Below, in pieces: positions 11,486-61,080 of a stretch of 64,000 bases of DNA (positions are counted from its first letter, which is position 1; the number at the start of each line of letters is the position of its first letter). Position numbers and translations under genes: made by a program. Under the pieces are notes generated by a model. The model was given only the letters and a program-made list of their open reading frames with translations, was not told the DNA's origin and did not search any database. The stretch is taken from positions 1,811,501 to 1,875,500 of the forward strand of contig NZ_LR134266.1 in assembly GCF_900636365.1 (NCBI RefSeq). The letters run 5' to 3'. The stretch comes from Streptococcus viridans (GTDB lineage: Bacteria > Bacillota > Bacilli > Lactobacillales > Streptococcaceae).

Positions 11486-11566
11486 GATAATTAACCCCTA
11501 TCTTTAAGTAAGTATAGACAAAGTATAGCACAGGAAAAACCTTTTTGCAAACGATTCCAAATTCTG

Positions 11567-12928
11567 TTAAGAAAAGACTCTTTTAAGAACCTCTCCTACA
11601 GTAGAGACAGCTATCACTTGAATGCCATTTGGGATCGCGATGCCTTGGAGAGAATTTTTTGGCGCATAAATCTTAGTGAAGCCAAGTTTAGCCGCTTCGT
11701 TGATCCGTTGCTCAATCCGAGTCACGCGACGAATCTCCCCAGTCAAGCCAATCTCACCGATAAAGGCCTCTTGAGGATTGGTTGGAAGCTCCTTGTAGCT
11801 AGAAGCAATGGCCACCGCTACGGCTAAGTCAATGGCTGGTTCGTCCAGTTTGACACCACCAGCTGACTTGAGATAGGCATCCTGATTTTGGAGAAGAAGT
11901 CCGCAACGTTTCTCTAACACAGCCATGATGAGGCTGACCCGATTAAAGTCAAGACCCGTTGTCGTCCGCTTGGCATTTCCAAATACAGTCGGTGTCACCA
12001 AGGCCTGAACTTCCGCCAAGATTGGTCTACTTCCTTCCATGGTGACGACAATGGCAGAGCCAGTCGCCCCATCCAAACGTTCTTCTAGAAAGACCTGACT
12101 GGGATTGAGGACTTCGACCAGTCCACCTGATTGCATCTCAAAGATTCCAATCTCATTGGTCGAGCCAAAGCGATTTTTCACCGCTCTCAGGATCCGGAAG
12201 GTGTGGTGGCGTTCCCCCTCAAAGTAGAGCACCGTATCCACCATGTGCTCCAGCATACGCGGGCCCGCCAAGGTTCCTTCCTTGGTCACATGACCGACGA
12301 TAAAGATGGCGATGTTATTGGTTTTGGCCAGCTGCATGAGCTCAGCCGTCACCTCGCGCACCTGAGAAACCGATCCCTGTACCCCTGAAATCTCCGGAGA
12401 CATAATGGTCTGGATGGAGTCGATGATAAGGAAGTTAGGCTGGATGCGTTCCACTTCCGCACGCACGCTTTGCATATTGGTCTCAGCATAGAGGTAAAAC
12501 TCGCTATCGATATCCCCCAAGCGCTCTGCCCGTAACTTGATCTGCTGGGCCGACTCCTCGCCACTGACATAGAGAACTGTTCCCACTTGAGATAGTTGGG
12601 TCGATACTTGAAGGAGGAGAGTAGACTTCCCAATCCCTGGATCTCCCCCGATGAGGACGAGACTTCCTGGGACGACACCACCTCCAAGGACGCGGTTGAA
12701 TTCCTCCATTTCCGTCTTGGTACGATGGACATTGATAGAGGTCACATCCGCCAGTTTCATGGGCTTGGTTTTCTCACCTGTCAAGGACACACGGGCATTC
12801 TTGACCTCGGCGACCTCAACCTCCTCGACAAAAGAAGACCAAGAACCACAGTTAGGACAGCGCCCTAGATACTTAGGTGAATTGTAGGCACAATTTTGAC
12901 AAATAAATGTCGTTTTTTTCTTAGCGAT
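11567..12928 (-). CDS. radA: DNA repair/recombination protein RadA, apparently starting at AUC
   Basis: RadA (Sms) is a RecA-fold, DnaB-like helicase that extends branches during homologous recombination, including transformation. The 453 residues comprise an N-terminal zinc finger (ICQNC at residue 9, RCPNC at residue 23), Walker [11 protein letters not shown] near residue 95, the RadA KNRFGS motif, and a C-terminal Lon-protease-like domain ([17 protein letters not shown]). The first ATG/GTG/TTG in frame is a GTG at 12790, which would delete the whole zinc finger. Upstream, the frame stays open with perfect homology to an ATC at 12928. That codon lies about six bases after AGAGG and is followed by GCTAAGAAAAAA. 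An in-frame TAG lies 24 bases before it with no standard start codon between. The resulting length equals that of pneumococcal RadA. Confidence 0.9.
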
Positions 12929-14017: not shown

Positions 14018-14036
14018 TTTTTTCTGACAAAGACAC

Positions 14037-14124
14037 AAAAGCCCCCTCAAACGAGGAGACTTTTGCAGGAGATTATATGAAAAAAGTAAACTGTATCAAA
14101 CAAAGTTAGGAGGTCTTTGTTGAT
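14037..14124 (-). ncRNA. Cia-dependent small RNA (csRNA), copy A
   Basis: The predicted RNA is about 88 nt. It begins with a hairpin whose arms are AACAAAG and CTTTGTT with CCTCC in the loop. An unpaired stretch follows containing CATATAATCTCC, complementary to a ribosome binding site plus AUG. It ends in a strong terminator (GTCTCCTC, GTTT, GAGGGGGC, TTTT). This is the plan of the CiaR-controlled csRNAs of streptococci, which base-pair with translation starts such as that of comC. The promoter carries a CiaR-type repeat exactly 10 bases before the -10 box. Confidence 0.85.
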
Positions 14125-21637: not shown

Positions 21638-21743
21638 GAGAGTGGGACAGAAATCGGTCATTCGTTAGAATTCGATTTCGTCGTCCCACCTCTGCATAAT
21701 TGAGAGGCTAGGACTTTTGTCCCAGCCTCCTCTTTCATTTATT
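21638..21743. repeat. Double-hairpin intergenic element between galU and the dipeptidase gene
   Basis: Two stem-loops follow each other. The first pairs GTGGGACAGAAATCG with CGATTTCGTCGTCCCAC. The second pairs GAGGCTAGGAC with GTCCCAGCCTC around TTTT. I recall similar GTGGGAC-containing elements as common in streptococcal intergenic regions. The second hairpin could terminate the convergent transcripts. No second copy was seen in this window. Confidence 0.55.
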
Positions 21744-33639: not shown

Positions 33640-34100
33640 TCACGTCGCAAAGCTCCTCAGGATCAATATCTCTAAACTCATCTGCGATTTGCAGGCTTGT
33701 TTCGTTAAGGTACTTTATTCAGCGACTAATTGTTCATCCCCAAATAAATTTTAGTTAAGCAATTTAACGCAGTAGCTGATTTGTTTCTTCTTTCGCTTTT
33801 TAAGCTCCGAAGAAAACATAATCAGCTTTGCGGGGGTGGAACTACGAACAAACGTTCTGTTCCACTCCCATCCATTGCTCTAGGATTCATCTACGCCTTG
33901 CAGGCATGATTCACTACGTTCATTTATCGGAACGTAGTTCTCGCTTTGCTCGAACTGCGTCAATGTACCTAAGTTCATCTTCGTCCCTTGGACTTGATTC
34001 ACTAAGAACTATCATAGGTTTACAGCTTTTTCCCTAGCGGGAAAAACTGCATCCATTGCTCTAAGATTCATCTGCGCCTTGCAGGCTTGATTCATCAAGA
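33640..34100. repeat. Degenerate array of about 43-bp hairpin repeats between pgi and SRP RNA
   Basis: Four related units lie at about 33664-33706, 33875-33917, 33968-34008 and 34055-34097. The best two share CTARGATTCATCTRCGCC and TTGCAGGCWTGATTCA. Perfect hairpins lie between the units: CTACGTTC/GAACGTAG (33915-33940), AGTTC-GAG/CTC-GAACT (33940-33957), TTTTTCCC/GGGAAAAA (34027-34045) and GGGGTGGAAC/GTTCCACTCCC (33833-33869). There is no plausible protein-coding gene in this stretch. Its identity is unknown. Confidence 0.6.
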
Positions 34101-34106
34101 GCAATA

Positions 34107-34184
34107 GAAAAGAGCACACAGTTCACTTCGCTTAGGGCTGCTGGATTCCTCCCCTGACCCGCTTCACGCAGAACTGTTGCTCCG
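34107..34184 (-). ncRNA. ffs: Signal recognition particle RNA (small, 4.5S type)
   Basis: The about 78-nt RNA folds into one long hairpin: GGAGCAACAGTTC pairs with GAACTGTGTGCTC. The conserved tip contains GGTCAGGGGAGGAATCCAGC then AGCCCTAAGCG, which I recognise as the streptococcal SRP RNA core that binds Ffh. T-residues follow the stem. Its position beside tadA is also seen in other Firmicutes. Confidence 0.88.
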
Positions 34185-34190
34185 ATAGGT

Positions 34191-34219
34191 ATTATATCAT
34201 AATTTGTGGATTTTGCAAA
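34191..34219 (-). promoter_or_regulatory. Promoter of SRP RNA
   Basis: Minus-strand TTGCAA, 16 bases, TATAAT (34191-34196), placing transcription start near 34184. Confidence 0.75.
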
Positions 34220-34794: not shown

Positions 34795-34883
34795 AAAAAA
34801 AGCCACCAATGGTTGACTTCTTATAGGGAGATATTATGAAAAAAAGTTTGGATTCTAAACAAAGTTGGGAGGTCTTTGTTTAT
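34795..34883 (-). ncRNA. Cia-dependent small RNA (csRNA), copy B
   Basis: The predicted RNA is about 89 nt. Its 5' hairpin is ATAAACAAAG, CCTCCC loop, CTTTGTTTA. The middle has CATAATATCTCCC, complementary to a GGGAGATATTATG translation start. The terminator pairs AAG..CAACC with GGTGG.CTT and ends in seven T. Organisation, spacing and key segments match copy A at 14037-14124 while most other bases differ, as expected for paralogous csRNAs. Confidence 0.88.
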
Positions 34884-34889
34884 GGTCTT

Positions 34890-41143: not shown

Positions 41144-41178
41144 AAAAAAACAGCATCGAAATATTGATGCTGTTTAAA
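41144..41178 (+). terminator. Terminator after dusB
   Basis: AAACAGCATC and GATGCTGTTT arms directly after the stop codon on the plus strand. Confidence 0.85.
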
Positions 41179-41263
41179 ATATGTACTAACTATTTTTAAC
41201 ATAAAATAGCTAGCTGGTTTTTCAAAAAAACTGACATATTTTTTTAGTCAGTTATGTAAATCT

Positions 41264-41450
41264 AAAACTTTCCGCTGTGAGAAAAGCGCCTGAAACACAA
41301 ATGTTTCAGGCACTCGGAATTATTGAGAGTAAAACAGTTTGGGGAACTGTTTTAGCCTGAGCCCAGAAATTAAAGAGCGAAGGGCTCAATAATTAGTCAT
41401 GGAACTTCGAAGAAGTTCGCTGACGTCCGTACTCACTTAAGGAAAGTTTT
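41264..41450 (+). repeat. Modular structured repeat, copy A (187 bp)
   Basis: The ends are perfect inverted repeats AAAACTTTCC and GGAAAGTTTT, reinforced by inner GTGAG and CTCAC. Inside are hairpin P2 (GCCTGAAACA/TGTTTCAGGC), a long P3 arm (AATTATTGAG/CTCAATAATT) that carries two sub-hairpins (AAACAGTT/AACTGTTT and GAGCCC/GGGCTC), and P4 (GAACTTC/GAAGTTC). GCTGACGTCCGTACTCAC ends it. A shorter copy lies in inverse orientation at 60837-60966. No gene is present between 41179 and 41505. Confidence 0.85.
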
Positions 41451-41471
41451 TAGAAGAACTTATCTTCATTT

Positions 41472-41501
41472 GACAGCATCAACTTTTTGATGCTGTTTTT
41501 G
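41472..41501 (+). terminator. Second ACAGCATC terminator beyond repeat A
   Basis: ACAGCATCAA, short loop, TTGATGCTGTTTTTG on the plus strand. Its stem is almost the same as that of the dusB terminator at 41144-41178, so the repeat is bracketed by two like terminators. Confidence 0.75.
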
Positions 41502-53068: not shown

Positions 53069-56000
53069 TTACTTGGCCTTATCGGCTCTTTTTTTCTTAT
53101 CATCCAGCACAGCACCAGCAAGTCCTGCTGCTAGGATTCCTGCTACAAGGCTTGCGACGCTTTCTTCCGTTCCCGTATTTGGTAATCTACCTTCGGAAAC
53201 TGAAGTTACTGAAACTGCTGGTGTTTGAGCTATTTTCTCGACTTCCTTCCCTGCTGAAACGATTCCTTTCTGACTGACAGGGTCCACCCCAACAGATGAC
53301 TTAGAAGTTTCTGCTAGCTCTGGTCTTTCTGAGGCATGAGGATGTTCTGAGTTCGGAAGCGGTTGTGGCTCTGGTTGTGGTTGTAGTTGTGGCTGCAGCT
53401 CTGGCTCTGGTTGCGGCTGTGGTTGTGGTTGTGGCTGTGGTGTTGGCTTGTCACTTGGATTTTCCGTTGGAACTTCCTTGGTGCCGACTTCTGTGATCTC
53501 TGCTACCGGTTCCACCTCGACAAAAGCATCGACTTCCTTACGTGTTTCCACTCCGTTTTCTTGTGATACTTCTACAAGATGGAGCTTGCGTCCTGCTTGG
53601 CCTTCTTGCACAAGCTTCTTCTCACCTTTCGGCAAGCTATCATTTGGACGTTCTTCATGCGCAAAATCAAGTCCCTCTGCCTCAATGATAAGTTCTGGCT
53701 TCGTATGAACCAGATTCTTAACCCCTTCTTCAGGAATGGCCGAGCCTGTAGGTGCTTTTGCGGATAGAGAAAGTTGATATACTTTTTCGAGCTTGCCATC
53801 TTCTGAGACAACCTTGACAAGAACCGGAGCATTGGCACTTTTAGCATCCACGACCGTAACGGCTGTTCCATTCTTGCCTTGTGCTGAAACGATTGGACGT
53901 TCTCCCTCATACTCTAGATGATAATCTGTCACATCTGCTTTAAAACCTTCTAGGTCTTTGCCATTCACTTGGATCGTGACATCAGTTGTTGCCTGGGCCT
54001 CTTCTGTTGGGGCATAGGCGCTCAATTCAACGATTCCGATTCCTTTAAGATTTTCATCACGGACCATTCTTAAACGGATGGCTTTGGTTCTGGTTTCGTT
54101 GAAGCTGAGGTTAGAGATATAACCAGGCTCAAAGGCATAATCCAAGCTGTAAGGAATTTCTTCCCAGTTAGAGGCCTGGTTAAATGGATGATCTGGAAGA
54201 TTCTTCAGATTGCCATAATCATCCGGAACATCAAAGTCTGGACCAATGTAGCGTTCAAGAACCGTTTTCGTTGGCAGACCTGTTTCCTGATCTGCAAAGA
54301 AATCGACTGCTACTTTATTGACTAAGCGCTCTGTTACTTGACCATTTTTCTTGAAAATGAGACCAGCAAACACTTCGGTTTGATCTGGCTCTCTCTTCCA
54401 GTTGGTCCAACGGTAGTACTCGTTGTAGCCACCATCATTGATGTAATCGATATAGTCGATTTGATTTGGATCGAGATCGTTGGTTTCACTAGCAAATGCT
54501 CTGGTATCCTCTGCATTGTAGTCACGGTTCACAGAGAGGATTTCTCCTGTCTTTTCTGACACCCGGACGGTCAGCTGAGCTGTCAGATCATAACCGAGGA
54601 CCTTTCCTTCTAACGTGAAGTTGCCTTCATGAGAAAGTGCATCAGCTGGGATAGCCTGCCAGTCCACCGTCAGTTCCTTGCGTTCATAACCTGTGTCCCC
54701 TTTGAAGTAGACACCTACTGTAGATGGTAGAACCAGATCTTGACCGACTTTGACAAAACGTCTGCCTGCTTCTACTGCTACTGGGGTAGCTTGTTTCAGT
54801 TTTTCTGCATCACTTGTGAGATGGAGGCGGTATTCTTGTAAGATAGTACCATCTTCTGCTTTATGGATGACACGGATTGGCTCACCTTCATGGACGCTTG
54901 GCACAACCGTTGCAAGACCGTGATGGCTAGCCGTCGCTTCCACTTGTGGATAAGCCCGATCACGCGCATCGATGTAGTAATCGGTCACACTTGGATTAAC
55001 TCCTGGTAAAACCTCACCGTTGACACGAATGGTCACCTGGCTCTTTTCTTCTGCCGCAACCTTATTGGCAAATACCTGAATCTCTGAAATAGAGCTTCCA
55101 CGTTTGCCTTCTGGTGTCTTCATACGGATACGAACAGCATAGGTGTCGACTTTATCAAAACTGAAATGATTCATCTTGCCAGCTGCTACCGGTTCTTCAA
55201 CGGTTAGGTTGCTGACTTCTTTCCAGTTGGCTGGATTGTTAAATGGATGGTCTGTTTCGTCTTTGACGCGATTTGGATTGCTTGGAACAGTTGGGATTTG
55301 TTCCCCTGTATAGTACTCAATCACATATTCACTTGGAGCCCCAACGCCGTGGTCTTCGTGGAAACCAACATGGAGGTTGTCCACTGCTCGCTTGGTCAAG
55401 ATACCAGAATCCCCAAACAAGATACCAACAGAATCTTCCGCATTGTCACGGCCCCAGTTGGTCCAACGGTTAGCTGGAGCATCGGTAAAGGAGATGACCT
55501 TATCATTGACCTTAGCAACTGGATCCGCATCGTTAGAGTCACTTGCAAAAGCGAGTGGCAAGACTGATCCTGTCCATTGCTCAGCTACATTGGCTCCCTT
55601 GACTGTGGTGCTAGAAACACGAATATGAAGACGTGTTGGAAGGTTGGTTCCTTCTACACGGCCTGCTATGACAACTTCTCCTTCTTGGGCCAAGAGTTGC
55701 GGATCGACCGCATCCCAGGCCACCTTGGCAGCATAGGTCTTGCCATTGGAGTGATAAGTCCGCACGCTTTCTGGAAGGGCTGGTTTTTCACCAACTGGCG
55801 TTGTCGTGCTGACTTCTTCTACAGCGATAATGCCTTCAACGGTGACTTGAGCTTGGGCTTCTTTTTCCACACCCTCTACATGACCTGTGACTGTAAAGCT
55901 ATGGTAATCCTTGACTTGATCTGCTGCCACGGTATCCCAGGTCACACGTTTTTCTTTCGGGAATCCCTTATCATACTCGACCAAGACGGTCTCTGGAAGA

Positions 56001-59000
56001 GCTGGCAAAACGTTTCGATCGGTGCTGATCCGTACAGGACGCACCTTGACAACCGTCTTTTCTTCAGGATTTGGCGTGATGGTAAAGGTGACTTCTCCCG
56101 TTTGTCCTTGGAAGCTAGCTTGTAAATGAACCAATCCTGCTTCTCGCAATTCCAAACCTTTATTGGTTGCGACTGCTTTTCCTTGACTTCCCGCTGCTGT
56201 TGCCACATCGATTTGATCTGCTTTGAGACTTGCCTGGCTACCATCTTGGTAATGAGCAATGACTTCAAGTAGTACTGTTTGGTCTTCCTTGAGTTCTTGC
56301 CCTTCTGGCAGACGCAATTCTAAACGTTGGATCTGTGGACTTTCTTCTTGGAATTGGACCACATAGGTCTGTACAGCTCCCGTATCCTTAGCGGTAACAT
56401 AGATTTGAGCTTTCAAACCATTTTCACGGCTAGCTTGTAGTACCGTCACTTGGGCATTTTCTGCACTTGCTGTGACTTGACCTGGCTCTTGCCCATAAGC
56501 GAGGGAACGGAAAATGGTATGGTTGCCACTACCAAATTTTGGAAGGGCTACCCCATCTAGCTGAACCGTTGGTTTCTTAGCCTTGGCTACATCTCCTCCT
56601 GCAACCACTAGCGTCGCTTGGACCGTTTCCCCATTGCCTAGGAGACCTGTCGCCTTCAAGCGAGCACCTGGTGTGGACAACTGATCTTCTTGACCAGCTT
56701 CCAAGGTCCATTGATCAACTTCATAGCTAACTGTCCGGCCATCTGTGAAGACCAATTGCACTGTCTTATCCACTGTCGTTAGATCTGCTCCCTGTGGGAT
56801 TTGTTTGATAACTGGAAGGACTTGCTCCACACCGATCACATCGACCAGAGCTTCGACCGTCCGTCCTTGAACATGACCTGTCACCCGGACTTGGCCAGCA
56901 CGACTATAGTCTGCTGCATCCCATTCGACGGCTTCTTCTTGGGCCTTGCCATCACTATAGACGACAGATACGTGACTTGGAAGTTCAGGATTTTGTCCCA
57001 AGTACACTTGAGTTCGAACCGGTTCGACCCCCAAGACAGAGCGTTCTTCCTGGTCCTTCTTACCAGTAAAGAGGCTAACTTGGTCTGACTGCAAGCGGTC
57101 TGAGTCTGCATACAGGGTAAAGGCACCTGCTTGCTCAGTCGATTTGACAATGACAACCCCTTTGCCGTTAAAGGCCCGACGTTGCCATGAGCCATCTTCC
57201 TGCGCTTTGTAGCGTTCCCGGCTGGCTTGTTCCCCGTTATCGACACCGACAATTTGACCTTGCCCATGCAGATGGAAATGCACCAAGTTATTGGCAGTTG
57301 GGACCACACGACCTTCTTCATCGACGATTTCATAGGTAATATAGGTCAGATCCTTGCCGTCTGCTGCAATCGCGTGTTCTTCTTTCAATAGACGAACACC
57401 GGCTGGCTTCCCAGCTGTCTCGATCTGATCACGGGCGATCACTTCGCCTGCTTCGTTGCGCGCAATAGCTTCCACTTTACCTGGTACATAAGGAACCAAC
57501 CACTCTAGATAGAGTTCATCCGGATTTGCCCCTTCTTGGTAGGTCCGGCCATCTGCTGTGGTCTTCTTGGTAAAGGTCTTGACCCCTTGTGATTCCCCAT
57601 TGACAATCAATTCCACACTGTGGGCATTAGAGAAGGACCGAACAGGGATCCGACCTTCTTCATCCATGACACGATTGGCCAATTCTGGATTTTCCCAGTT
57701 CCAATGCGGTAAGAGATGGACCATTGGATGTTTCTCAGCTGACAACCATTGACTTTGGTACAGGTAAAAATCATTCTTCGGAAGGCCGGCAGTATCGACA
57801 ATACCGAAATAAGAACTTTTCACAGGTGTGTCATTTTGGTTGTGCCATGGTGTTGGCTCACCGATATAGTCGGTACCTGTCCAGATAAATTGCCCTGCAT
57901 AGCCGGCATGATCGCGGTCAAAGGTCCAAGAGGCTGTCGCTGTCCGACCCCAACCAACCCGGTCATTGCCGTAGTCTGATTGTTCATAGTGGCGGTCTTC
58001 TTGGTTGCTTCCGACCCATTCTCTTTCAGGGTGGTAGTAAGAGCCCCGTGTCCGCGTCGCAGAAGAGGTTTCAGAACCATAAATGAGCCAGTTTGGGTGT
58101 TTAGCTCGTAGGCTTTCATAGTTGGCCTCTGAATAGTTAAATCCAACTGCATCGAGCTCTGCCGCTACCTTTTCATGCCCTCCTGATCCATCACCAAAGC
58201 GGAATTTATCAGCTCCCATGGTGACATAGCGAGTTGCGTCCACTTCCTTGATGGTCTTTACGAGACGACGAACGGTTGCGACAGACTTATCAGATCCATC
58301 TGCCTCACCGATTTCGTTACCGATTGACCACATCACAATAGAAGGATTGTTCTTGCCTCGCTCTACCATGGTTCGAAGGTCATAGTCAGACCACTTATCC
58401 CCTTTACGAGCTTCTGGATGCGTTGCATCCTTTTCAAAGAATCGACCGTAATCGTATTGTTTCTTACCACCATACCAAGTATCAAAAGCTTCTTCTTGGA
58501 CCATCAAGCCCAACTCGGCCGCAATTTGCAAGGTTTGTTCACTGGCTGGGTTGTGGGTCGTCCGGATGGCATTGACTCCCATGTCCTTCATCTGTTTGAG
58601 GCGACGGTATTCAGCCTTGTAATTTTCCTCAGCTCCGAGAGCCCCATGGTCATGGTGAAGGGAAACACCGTGGAATTTCGTAGCCACTCCGTTAAGGAAG
58701 AAGCCCCCTTCTGGTGTCCAGTTCAGATAGCGGTAGCCAAAGCGTTCCTTTTGCACATCGACCAACTGCGAATCCCGATAGACCCGCGTATACAGCGTAT
58801 AGAGAGCTGGGTTATTGGTCTTCACATCCCAGAGGGTCGGTTTTTCAACATGAAGAGTATGAGACAGGTTGATCTCTTGACCAGCCAAAACGGATTGAAC
58901 TTCACTACGTACCTTTTCACTGACCACTTGACCATTTTGATCGACGATTTCGTATTCTGCATAAATACTATGGGCTTGATCATCTTGGTTAACAATACGA

Positions 59001-59923
59001 CTCTTCACAAGAGTATCGACTGCCCCATTCTGTTGTTCTTCTAATTTTGAACTCGTGATGGTGGTCCCATACTTAGCCACATGAACCTTGTCCGTCACAC
59101 TGAGTTTGACATCACGATAGATCCCACTTCCAGAATACCAACGACTACTTGGTTGTTGGTTGACTACATGAACCGCGATGGTATTTTCACTTCCATCCGC
59201 ATTCAAATAAGGAGTAATATCATAAGAAAAAGCATTGTAGCCATTTGGATAATGACCAACAAATTGCCCATTTACATAGACTTTCGAATCCATGTAAACT
59301 CCACCAAATTCCAAACGCACCTTCTTATCGAGGTCCTTGTCTTCCAAACGGAAGGTCTTGCGATACCAAGCATCCCCACCGTTTAATTGTCCCCCTTCAT
59401 TTTGAGCCGGAGAGTTGTGATCGAAGTCAAAGAAGATTGACCAATCGTGGGGTAAATCTAATTTTTTCCAGTTTTTAACATCCACCTGGCGACCTTCTGC
59501 ACCAGGAGCTGCATTTAATTTGAAATACCAGTCCTTGTTAAAGTCTCGTTCGCGATCTTGCACCATGTCCTCCGCTACCTGTTTTTGGTCTTTCGTAGCC
59601 TCTTCAGTAGCCCCAGCAGAACGTTCACTTGTTTGAGGTTCCACCTGTGGCTGTTCGACTTCGCTCTCATTTCTTTCAGGAGTAATGACAGCAGGCGCCT
59701 CTAAGGTTGTTGAAGCTTTATCACTTGTCACAACCTCTCCATTCGTTACCTCTGACGCTTCCCTTGTGGACGTCATCTCCTCTTCTGTTACAGCTCTTCC
59801 TTCTTCTTCTGCCAATACTGATGGAGCTCCAAAAAAAGATACACCGATTAAAACAGAACAAGCTCCAACCGCGAGCTTGCGAATACTAAATACACTGCGC
59901 TTTTCAAAAAAAGACTTTCCCAT
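53069..59923 (-). CDS. bgaA: Giant surface beta-galactosidase, BgaA-like (GH2)
   Basis: The 2284-residue protein has a YSIRK-type signal (VFSIRKLAVGACSVLIGVSF) and an acidic linker. The GH2 sugar-binding, Ig and TIM-barrel modules follow (about 125-760), with acid/base Glu in MWSIGNEIGEADG (about residue 535) and nucleophile Glu in IYGSETSSATRTRG (about residue 617). Many Ig-like (Big_4-type) and carbohydrate-binding-like modules follow (about 950-2040). Next are a G5-like domain (about 2060-2145), a Pro/Gln repeat wall spanner (QPQPQPQPQPEP) and LPNTGTE with a membrane helix. Pneumococcal BgaA (2233 residues) has the same plan, cleaves terminal beta-1,4-galactose from host N-glycans and also acts as an adhesin. 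The start has GGAGG six bases upstream. Confidence 0.93.
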   Translation of the reverse strand: MGKSFFEKRSVFSIRKLAVGACSVLIGVSFFGAPSVLAEEEGRAVTEEEMTSTREASEVTNGEVVTSDKASTTLEAPAVITPERNESEVEQPQVEPQTSERSAGATEEATKDQKQVAEDMVQDRERDFNKDWYFKLNAAPGAEGRQVDVKNWKKLDLPHDWSIFFDFDHNSPAQNEGGQLNGGDAWYRKTFRLEDKDLDKKVRLEFGGVYMDSKVYVNGQFVGHYPNGYNAFSYDITPYLNADGSENTIAVHVVNQQPSSRWYSGSGIYRDVKLSVTDKVHVAKYGTTITSSKLEEQQNGAVDTLVKSRIVNQDDQAHSIYAEYEIVDQNGQVVSEKVRSEVQSVLAGQEINLSHTLHVEKPTLWDVKTNNPALYTLYTRVYRDSQLVDVQKERFGYRYLNWTPEGGFFLNGVATKFHGVSLHHDHGALGAEENYKAEYRRLKQMKDMGVNAIRTTHNPASEQTLQIAAELGLMVQEEAFDTWYGGKKQYDYGRFFEKDATHPEARKGDKWSDYDLRTMVERGKNNPSIVMWSIGNEIGEADGSDKSVATVRRLVKTIKEVDATRYVTMGADKFRFGDGSGGHEKVAAELDAVGFNYSEANYESLRAKHPNWLIYGSETSSATRTRGSYYHPEREWVGSNQEDRHYEQSDYGNDRVGWGRTATASWTFDRDHAGYAGQFIWTGTDYIGEPTPWHNQNDTPVKSSYFGIVDTAGLPKNDFYLYQSQWLSAEKHPMVHLLPHWNWENPELANRVMDEEGRIPVRSFSNAHSVELIVNGESQGVKTFTKKTTADGRTYQEGANPDELYLEWLVPYVPGKVEAIARNEAGEVIARDQIETAGKPAGVRLLKEEHAIAADGKDLTYITYEIVDEEGRVVPTANNLVHFHLHGQGQIVGVDNGEQASRERYKAQEDGSWQRRAFNGKGVVIVKSTEQAGAFTLYADSDRLQSDQVSLFTGKKDQEERSVLGVEPVRTQVYLGQNPELPSHVSVVYSDGKAQEEAVEWDAADYSRAGQVRVTGHVQGRTVEALVDVIGVEQVLPVIKQIPQGADLTTVDKTVQLVFTDGRTVSYEVDQWTLEAGQEDQLSTPGARLKATGLLGNGETVQATLVVAGGDVAKAKKPTVQLDGVALPKFGSGNHTIFRSLAYGQEPGQVTASAENAQVTVLQASRENGLKAQIYVTAKDTGAVQTYVVQFQEESPQIQRLELRLPEGQELKEDQTVLLEVIAHYQDGSQASLKADQIDVATAAGSQGKAVATNKGLELREAGLVHLQASFQGQTGEVTFTITPNPEEKTVVKVRPVRISTDRNVLPALPETVLVEYDKGFPKEKRVTWDTVAADQVKDYHSFTVTGHVEGVEKEAQAQVTVEGIIAVEEVSTTTPVGEKPALPESVRTYHSNGKTYAAKVAWDAVDPQLLAQEGEVVIAGRVEGTNLPTRLHIRVSSTTVKGANVAEQWTGSVLPLAFASDSNDADPVAKVNDKVISFTDAPANRWTNWGRDNAEDSVGILFGDSGILTKRAVDNLHVGFHEDHGVGAPSEYVIEYYTGEQIPTVPSNPNRVKDETDHPFNNPANWKEVSNLTVEEPVAAGKMNHFSFDKVDTYAVRIRMKTPEGKRGSSISEIQVFANKVAAEEKSQVTIRVNGEVLPGVNPSVTDYYIDARDRAYPQVEATASHHGLATVVPSVHEGEPIRVIHKAEDGTILQEYRLHLTSDAEKLKQATPVAVEAGRRFVKVGQDLVLPSTVGVYFKGDTGYERKELTVDWQAIPADALSHEGNFTLEGKVLGYDLTAQLTVRVSEKTGEILSVNRDYNAEDTRAFASETNDLDPNQIDYIDYINDGGYNEYYRWTNWKREPDQTEVFAGLIFKKNGQVTERLVNKVAVDFFADQETGLPTKTVLERYIGPDFDVPDDYGNLKNLPDHPFNQASNWEEIPYSLDYAFEPGYISNLSFNETRTKAIRLRMVRDENLKGIGIVELSAYAPTEEAQATTDVTIQVNGKDLEGFKADVTDYHLEYEGERPIVSAQGKNGTAVTVVDAKSANAPVLVKVVSEDGKLEKVYQLSLSAKAPTGSAIPEEGVKNLVHTKPELIIEAEGLDFAHEERPNDSLPKGEKKLVQEGQAGRKLHLVEVSQENGVETRKEVDAFVEVEPVAEITEVGTKEVPTENPSDKPTPQPQPQPQPQPEPELQPQLQPQPEPQPLPNSEHPHASERPELAETSKSSVGVDPVSQKGIVSAGKEVEKIAQTPAVSVTSVSEGRLPNTGTEESVASLVAGILAAGLAGAVLDDKKKRADKAK
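53370..53450 (-). repeat. Pro/Gln codon repeats in the wall-spanning part of the BgaA-like gene
   Basis: Short repeats alternating Pro and Gln/Glu codons encode PQPQPQPQPQPEPELQPQLQ-type sequence. Low-complexity DNA here can slip in length. Confidence 0.8.
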
Positions 59924-60788: not shown

Positions 60789-60836
60789 GAAAAAAATAAA
60801 AGCATGGTATCAGATTAGGAAATACCTTCTTCGATC

Positions 60837-60966
60837 CTTTCCTTATGTGAGTACGGACGTCAGCGAACTTCTACGAAGTTCCATGACTTAGTTTTGGATC
60901 TAAGGTTCCAAAACTCCCGAGTGCTTGAAACAGCAATGTTTCAAGTACTTTTCTCACGGCGGAAAG
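60837..60966 (-). repeat. Modular structured repeat, copy B (130 bp)
   Basis: Reads on the minus strand with ends CTTTCC-GCC-GTGAG and CTCAC-ATAA-GGAAAG. P2 is CTTGAAACA/TGTTTCAAG, P3 AGTTTTGGA/TCCAAAACT and P4 GAACTTC/GAAGTTC. The end sequences, P4 and GCTGACGTCCGTACTCAC are almost identical to copy A, while P2 differs by paired changes and P3 is a short unrelated stem. It lies between the COG2426 gene and the tsf terminator. No gene lies in the surrounding 60789-61080. Confidence 0.85.
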
Positions 60967-61080
60967 CCTCAGTATGTATTTGAATTAATTTTCAGTCAGA
61001 ATATCTCCGTTATTTTATGAATTCTAAGTTTTTAATAGTTAGAAAATGCCTAAAACAAATGTCTTAGGTATCTTCCTTAC

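Follow-up and report, generated by a model that had tools for sequence, protein, structure and literature searches.

The question raised by this locus is why two sequences lying 19 kb apart in the same window (the whole analysed stretch of 64,000 nucleotides) of Streptococcus viridans DNA keep a common fold while parts of their sequence are exchanged. The host is a member of the S. parasanguinis/australis clade. From the two sequences, termed here copy A and copy B, the original prediction offered two guesses, a non-autonomous mobile element and an RNA with a swappable module. As described below, the former is supported by empty sites and a duplicated target, and the latter by covariation and by modules exchanged among the copies.

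Copies, anatomy and RNA fold

The shared parts of the two copies are all present as claimed: CTTTCC/GGAAAG and GTGAG/CTCAC as closing helices, the P4 hairpin, and an 18-base tail that does not differ between them. The tail GCTGACGTCCGTACTCAC occurs at 41419-41436 (+) in copy A and at 60847-60864 (-) in copy B, with 0.04 chance matches expected in the window, and over the whole host genome (1,998,575 bp) it occurs 36 times at up to 3 mismatches, 25 of them exact, with 0 matches to the reversed tail used as the control. Together with five diverged copies found with the Rfam model, the host has at least 41 copies, so that the number of two has to be given up. It is noted that the lack of further copies and of pairing conserved in relatives had been named as the refutation; both are clearly there. 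Both copies fold far better than shuffled sequence, with z = -7.3 for copy A and z = -4.9 for copy B. The features in the window are as follows.

41150 to 41175, + strand: left terminator hairpin of the duplicated pair of copy A, ACAGCATCGAAATATTGATGCTGTTT, directly after a dusB-like gene
41176 to 41263, + strand: left arm of copy A, a diverged form of GAATGTAGACAAACTATT...AAGATG
41264 to 41450, + strand: structured RNA core of copy A, with P0, P1, P2, P3 with the long module, and P4 (covariance-model match 41263-41452, 130 bits, E 7e-30)
41286 to 41311, + strand: P2 hairpin of copy A
41316 to 41396, + strand: P3 arm of copy A, with the type-b base stem AATTATTGAG/CTCAATAATT
41329 to 41384, + strand: 56-nt exchangeable module of copy A, two sub-hairpins in the P3 apical loop
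41396 to 41424, + strand: P4 hairpin of copy A, with the conserved internal loop
41419 to 41436, + strand: conserved tail of copy A, GCTGACGTCCGTACTCAC
41451 to 41472, + strand: right arm and right tip of copy A, TTATCTTCATTTG
41473 to 41498, + strand: right terminator hairpin of the duplicated pair of copy A, identical in the stem and different in the loop
60813 to 60830, - strand: right outer arm of copy B, AGAAGGTATTTCCTAATC, inverted-repeat partner of 61061-61077
60831 to 60971, - strand: structured RNA core of copy B, with the short type-a P3 (covariance-model match 136.5 bits, E 1.8e-31)
60847 to 60864, - strand: conserved tail of copy B, GCTGACGTCCGTACTCAC
60887 to 60918, - strand: P3 of copy B, with the type-a stem GAGTTTTGGA/TCCAAAACT and the loop CCTTAG
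61061 to 61077, - strand: left outer arm of copy B, AGGAAGATACCTAAGAC

A third covariance-model match in the window, at 11492-11613 (-) with 23.7 bits, overlaps a radA-like gene and is judged to be due to chance. The window also holds two csRNA (Cia-dependent small RNA) genes at 14035-14124 (-) and 34796-34884 (-), a small SRP RNA at 34096-34191 (-) and, at 53069-59923 (-), a predicted 2284-aa cell-wall-anchored protein whose translation has LPNTG near the C-terminus and a beta-galactosidase-like N-terminal part.

When all the copies are compared, the conserved sequence extends beyond the limits predicted originally. In the high-copy clade the structured RNA element of about 140 nt sits within an element of about 250-300 bp, having a left arm of about 80-90 nt that starts with GAATGTAGACAAACTATT and a right arm that finishes with ACTTTATCTTCAATCTG. 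The tips of the element form an imperfect inverted repeat (11 of 15 positions, GAATGTAGACAAACT / CAGATTGAAGATAAAGT), and a search of the host genome with its two ends gives 22 and 23 matches, most of them at copies already known. The CTTTCC/GGAAAG repeat, which had been taken as terminal, does pair as claimed, but it closes the RNA core rather than marking the end of the element, which in copy A runs from about 41176 to 41472.

Within the core, the outer helices P0 and P1 are followed by the hairpin P2, a short CGG/CCG helix, P3 and P4. The pair change noticed in P2 is as described, CCTGAAAC/GTTTCAGG in one copy versus CTTGAAAC/GTTTCAAG in the other. For P3, the long arm with two hairpins in copy A is also as described, whereas the stem in copy B is not unrelated to it: the base stems are homologous and covary, AATTATTGAG/CTCAATAATT versus GAGTTTTGGA/TCCAAAACT, and these represent the two covarying types of the P3 stem, b and a. 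The 56-nt module in the P3 loop is present in 4 of the 36 copies, on both stem types, a longer module is present in 3 of the 36, and P4 is exchanged in 3. The same module on both types of stem, together with the P4 swaps, implies that the modules reassort among the copies.

The fold is strongly supported as a conserved RNA structure. When 30 copies from many species are aligned by sequence only, 94.8% of the cells are paired and compensatory changes occur at 27 of 37 pairs, compared with 16.3 ± 1.7 after shuffling (0 of 500 shuffles match), and the slid controls collapse. Among 77 distinct sequences in an alignment that was fitted to the model and hence leans towards it, 42 of 45 pairs covary, with a score of 0.66 versus 0.18 for shuffled and at most 0.12 for slid sequences. 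G-U pairs outnumber A-C mismatches by 74 to 39 (p = 0.001; 34 sequences versus 10), from which the RNA is assigned to the strand read here. Moreover, unpaired motifs, GAGACC..AGGCTC in apical P3 and AUGGAA/GCU in the internal loop of P4, are conserved in young mobile copies as well as in old residents. Note also that the G-U rate is low, about 2%, that the P4 loops occur as reverse-complement pairs (TTC/GAA and GTA/TAC) and that the terminator loops are inverted at loci L001 and L029; from the rarity of G-U and the inverted loops, a correction of the hairpin (palindrome) at the DNA level probably also shapes the stems. As a separate observation, the loops of the duplicated terminators at L001, L029, L004 and L020 and of many P4 hairpins are reverse complements with identical stems, which suggests that loop inversion is frequent in bacterial palindromes.

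Insertion at terminators with duplication of the hairpin

Many host copies lie between two copies of the intrinsic terminator of the adjacent gene. The best ungapped similarity between the left and right flanks reaches 14 or more at 13 of 35 host loci and at 0 of 1190 cross-locus pairs, the maximum for the latter being 11. Four loci (L008, L013, L017 and L025) have empty orthologous sites, where the relatives G007 and/or G063 have the same genes and one terminator with no element. The duplication is 30 bp at L013, 28 bp at L008, 23 bp at L025 and 22 bp at L017, in each case 1-2 nt more than the predicted hairpin span, and across eleven loci the excess of the duplication over the predicted span is 0-2 nt. 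The target-site duplication that had been proposed as a check is thus found in the host as flanking terminator pairs of 22-30 bp, and the insertion occurs at terminators with duplication of the hairpin, its length being the hairpin span plus 0-2 nt. Since the duplication length follows the hairpin length, this is genuine transposition into terminators. Terminator pairs are also present in other species, exact at L083 and with one mismatch at L074.

Copy A (L020) has its terminator pair at 41150-41175 and 41473-41498, and at its site in the relatives G007 and G063, as likewise at L002, a second dispersed repeat takes the place of the element. This second repeat, GAGGCTGGGACAAAAGTCCTAGCCTC ... 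GTGGGACGACGAAATCG, is seen at the same kind of site at 21704-21729 (-) in the window and at L028, L042, L213, L216 and others. For copy B no clear terminator duplication was detected, as for about half of the host copies; at its site, G063 has the same element, G142 the long-module form and G207 none. At L067 (G000:C1:235520-235580) a 60-bp mini-element, possibly a derivative by internal deletion, is made up of a pair of right ends that face outwards, and the terminators on its two sides differ from each other.

A target duplication of fixed length is rejected by the range of 22-30 bp that tracks the hairpin span. Also rejected is retrotransposition with a terminator carried from the donor, since the terminators on either side belong to the target gene itself. 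The features of a MITE are found, namely the target duplication and the empty sites in relatives, together with inverted ends, no ORF, short length and many copies. No autonomous partner with the same ends was found in the host or at 30 rve loci inspected in other genomes. A search for rve transposases gives none in the host, and among 30 related or element-bearing genomes the rve proteins all fall short of the IS1202 size, their open frames being up to 348 aa. With none in the host, wrong sizes in these 30 genomes and no matching pair of ends around the 30 loci inspected, IS1202 or another rve transposase is rejected as the local partner. A gene framed by GAATGTAGACAAACT...TTTATCTTCAATCTG within a duplicated terminator would be the autonomous partner.

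Distribution and the copies resident in operons

The covariance-model search over Streptococcus that had been suggested finds the RNA in 257 of 285 species, about 90%, in a survey that scored up to 11 copies per genome. The exact tail is narrower, occurring in 38 of the 285 species, about two dozen of which have 14-48 copies, and a variant of it is found in S. parasanguinis, S. australis, S. xiaochunlingii and relatives. The mobile form has undergone a young expansion in the S. parasanguinis clade, which includes both window copies. Outside Streptococcus the RNA is found in one sampled genome only, G398, of another Lactobacillales family, with 51 copies (L146-L175 among them), some in tandem; a second genome of the same genus has none, and horizontal acquisition followed by expansion is possible. 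A terminator duplication was looked for in G398 and none was seen. A phage or plasmid origin is rejected, since a search of 50,697 phage and 72,556 plasmid records, and of viral contigs, gave no match.

In the host, 29 of the 36 copies follow a sense gene and 21 of the 36 lie between convergent genes by a simple ORF call, which fits a 3'-UTR position. Another set of copies lies at fixed sites inside operons, i.e., grpE|dnaK, purD|purE, upstream of purB, glyQ|glyS, yqeH|yhbY and rfbC|rfbB; resident copies are present in the host at the first five of these. Where measured, namely before dnaK, purE, purB and rfbB, these resident copies are in sense, 16-42 nt before the start codon. Species that have one copy only nearly always carry it 17-42 nt ahead of rfbB, dnaK or purE, within the operon and in sense orientation, with a few gene starts in this survey assigned by eye from the downstream reading frame. 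The genes downstream of the resident copies have no common pathway, as would be looked for with a riboswitch or leader, though the positions are conserved.

In a tree of the cores, built on 139 positions and with moderate support, most of the dnaK copies (seven) cluster according to locus, as do the yhbY copies without exception and the two at purB. Of the 27 tips of the mobile type, 26 fall in one young clade. The rfbB copies fall into several clades, which suggests repeated recruitment at the same gap, a position preference being also possible. It is also observed that the S. pyogenes candidate SSRC 1 (PMC3675131, Table 3) lies upstream of purB, the adenylosuccinate lyase gene, where the resident purB copy (L076, L253) is also located; SSRC 1 was dropped for want of an RT-PCR signal (PMC3675131).

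Two proposed lifestyles, competing explanations and known systems

We propose that this genus-wide family of structured RNA probably has two lifestyles, a mobile, MITE-like form that duplicates terminators and a resident form inside operons. In the model, the mobile form is a non-autonomous MITE-like element of about 250-300 bp that inserts at an intrinsic terminator and duplicates the whole of it. Since the two strands of a palindrome have the same hairpin base, a trans-acting enzyme would nick each of them there when the palindrome is extruded, and fill-in after the nicking would yield a duplication as long as the hairpin; such nicks are the simplest explanation of the duplication tracking the hairpin length. 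The benefit of this targeting is plain from the arrangement: with the whole terminator duplicated, the upstream gene still ends in a terminator, and a second one at the 3' end of the element stops the transcript of the element itself. The P3 insert, the P4 variant and the hairpin loops are exchanged or inverted among the copies. The resident form comprises single diverged copies at fixed intra-operon sites on the sense strand, and our best guess for its fold is a cis-acting boundary in mRNA processing or stability that would uncouple the downstream cistron.

By contrast, it could be supposed that the element is a pure DNA parasite, in which nested palindromes are kept by hairpin template switching and the RNA-like covariation is a by-product with no RNA function. 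The rare G-U pairs agree with this supposition, the reverse-complement P4 loops and the inverted terminator loops (L001, L029) indicate that hairpin inversion does occur, and 21 of 36 copies lie between convergent genes, as with parasitic repeats. Against it, G-U exceeds A-C about two to one and unpaired motifs are conserved; moreover, the sense-oriented orthologous retention before start codons in many species, with the rfbB and the dnaK site each taken by independent clades, needs selection or extreme site preference. We regard a pure DNA parasite as unlikely. By analogy with bridge, seek and omega RNAs, the RNA might instead take part in its own mobility, the folded transcript being bound by, or guiding, the mobilising enzyme, in which case the fold would be conserved even in copies without a role for the host. 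The fold and the unpaired motifs are indeed kept in both young mobile copies and old residents, the G-U bias puts selection on RNA, and in S. pyogenes the homologue forms a stable transcript (PMC3675131). But no protein gene goes with the element, the short variable loops resemble inversions rather than target-matching guides, and the residents stay at fixed sites with no sign of movement, which makes a role of the RNA in mobility rather improbable.

An explanation that we consider highly improbable is a stationary regulatory RNA (a 3'-UTR sRNA, SSRC8-like) whose copies arose not by transposition but by gene conversion or recombination of the ordinary kind. The modules common to different copies imply that recombination among copies is real, and SSRC8 has been described as a putative trans-acting sRNA (PMC3675131); however, clean empty sites, and unrelated loci at which the target has its own terminator duplicated, are marks that transposition leaves and homologous exchange does not, and the four pairs of empty and filled sites largely refute it. 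Returning to the two lifestyles proposed here, they may be extended to a new mode of transposition, in which the target would be set by DNA secondary structure, i.e., any intrinsic-terminator palindrome, the carried RNA would be part of the machinery and the residents of housekeeping operons would be domesticated descendants; we put this forward as a doubtful extension. If targeting defined by structure is true, the duplication would be as long as the hairpin and the host gene would never lose its terminator. An element that inserts at terminators and copies them with a hairpin-length duplication makes such targeting directly testable, and the same RNA fixed before dnaK, purE, purB and rfbB and inside two more operons provides a system for studying how a mobile RNA becomes an mRNA control element.

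The original prediction had likened the repeats to BOX elements with variable parts and recognised them as neither BOX, RUP nor SPRITE; the former is apt as an analogy only and the latter holds. BOX of S. pneumoniae and S. suis is likewise a modular, structured and transcribed intergenic repeat with variable inner modules and a parasitic distribution (PMC3049150). The two differ in sequence and primer site, the target here is a terminator hairpin, and BOX occurs mainly in S. pneumoniae, S. mitis and S. suis whereas the element here is genus-wide. BOX membership is rejected, the BOXA1R primer sequence being absent from 221 loci and from the window at 3 mismatches. RUP and SPRITE of S. pneumoniae are also short dispersed streptococcal repeats, SPRITE lying near the 3' ends of convergent genes, but RUP is about 107 bp and SPRITE is a single terminator-like stem with AAAA/TTTT ends, and neither has the multibranched fold or the terminator duplication; by length and fold, membership of either is rejected. 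ERIC, Correia and REP are structured repeats able to act as mRNA processing or stability elements (reviewed in PMC3049150), with unrelated sequence and hosts and no terminator duplication. The IS1202 group (IS1202, ISSeq2) makes long target duplications, 27 and 28 bp in two streptococcal members (PMC10132070), the range in the family being 16-28 bp; here it is 22-30 bp but varies with the hairpin. The ends of that family are 5'-TGT/ACA-3' where described, whereas the tips here are GAATG.../...CAATCTG, and the IS1202-type rve transposase (394-507 aa) is not in the host or the related genomes searched; the resemblance is a lead only.

The nearest catalogued relative is Rfam RF02616, SSRC8_2, found at a relaxed threshold, to which copy A scores 35.2 bits (E 2e-8). 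Host copies are matched over the full length, and the gathering score of 72 bits is passed by three of them (92.3, 79.3 and 76.1 bits), most others, copy A included, being below it, and core matches elsewhere score 41-64 bits. The core fold (the P3 GAGACC-AGGCTC and P4, with compensatory pairs) and the flanking terminator pair are the same, and the outer stem of the Rfam model corresponds to the duplicated terminators plus the element ends. SSRC8 is an sRNA of S. pyogenes MGAS315, detected by three predictors, Northern blot and circular RACE, that falls in late stationary phase, and its 142-250 part has BLAST homologues in many streptococci (PMC3675131). It was treated as a single, putative trans-acting sRNA, and a discrete expressed transcript with its end at a terminator is shown for this S. 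pyogenes homologue only (PMC3675131). In the open-access literature we found no description of SSRC8 as a repeat, mobile or terminator-duplicating. What differs, then, is that RF02616 is known as one sRNA; it is described there neither as an intra-operon leader nor as a repeat that is dispersed, mobile or terminator-duplicating. With the present analysis the catalogued streptococcal small RNA takes its place in a repeat family that spans the genus and reaches tens of copies in the genomes of some species, and the one-member Rfam family is extended to a genus-wide RNA element, mobile and resident, i.e., a structured MITE-like repeat that was partly known.
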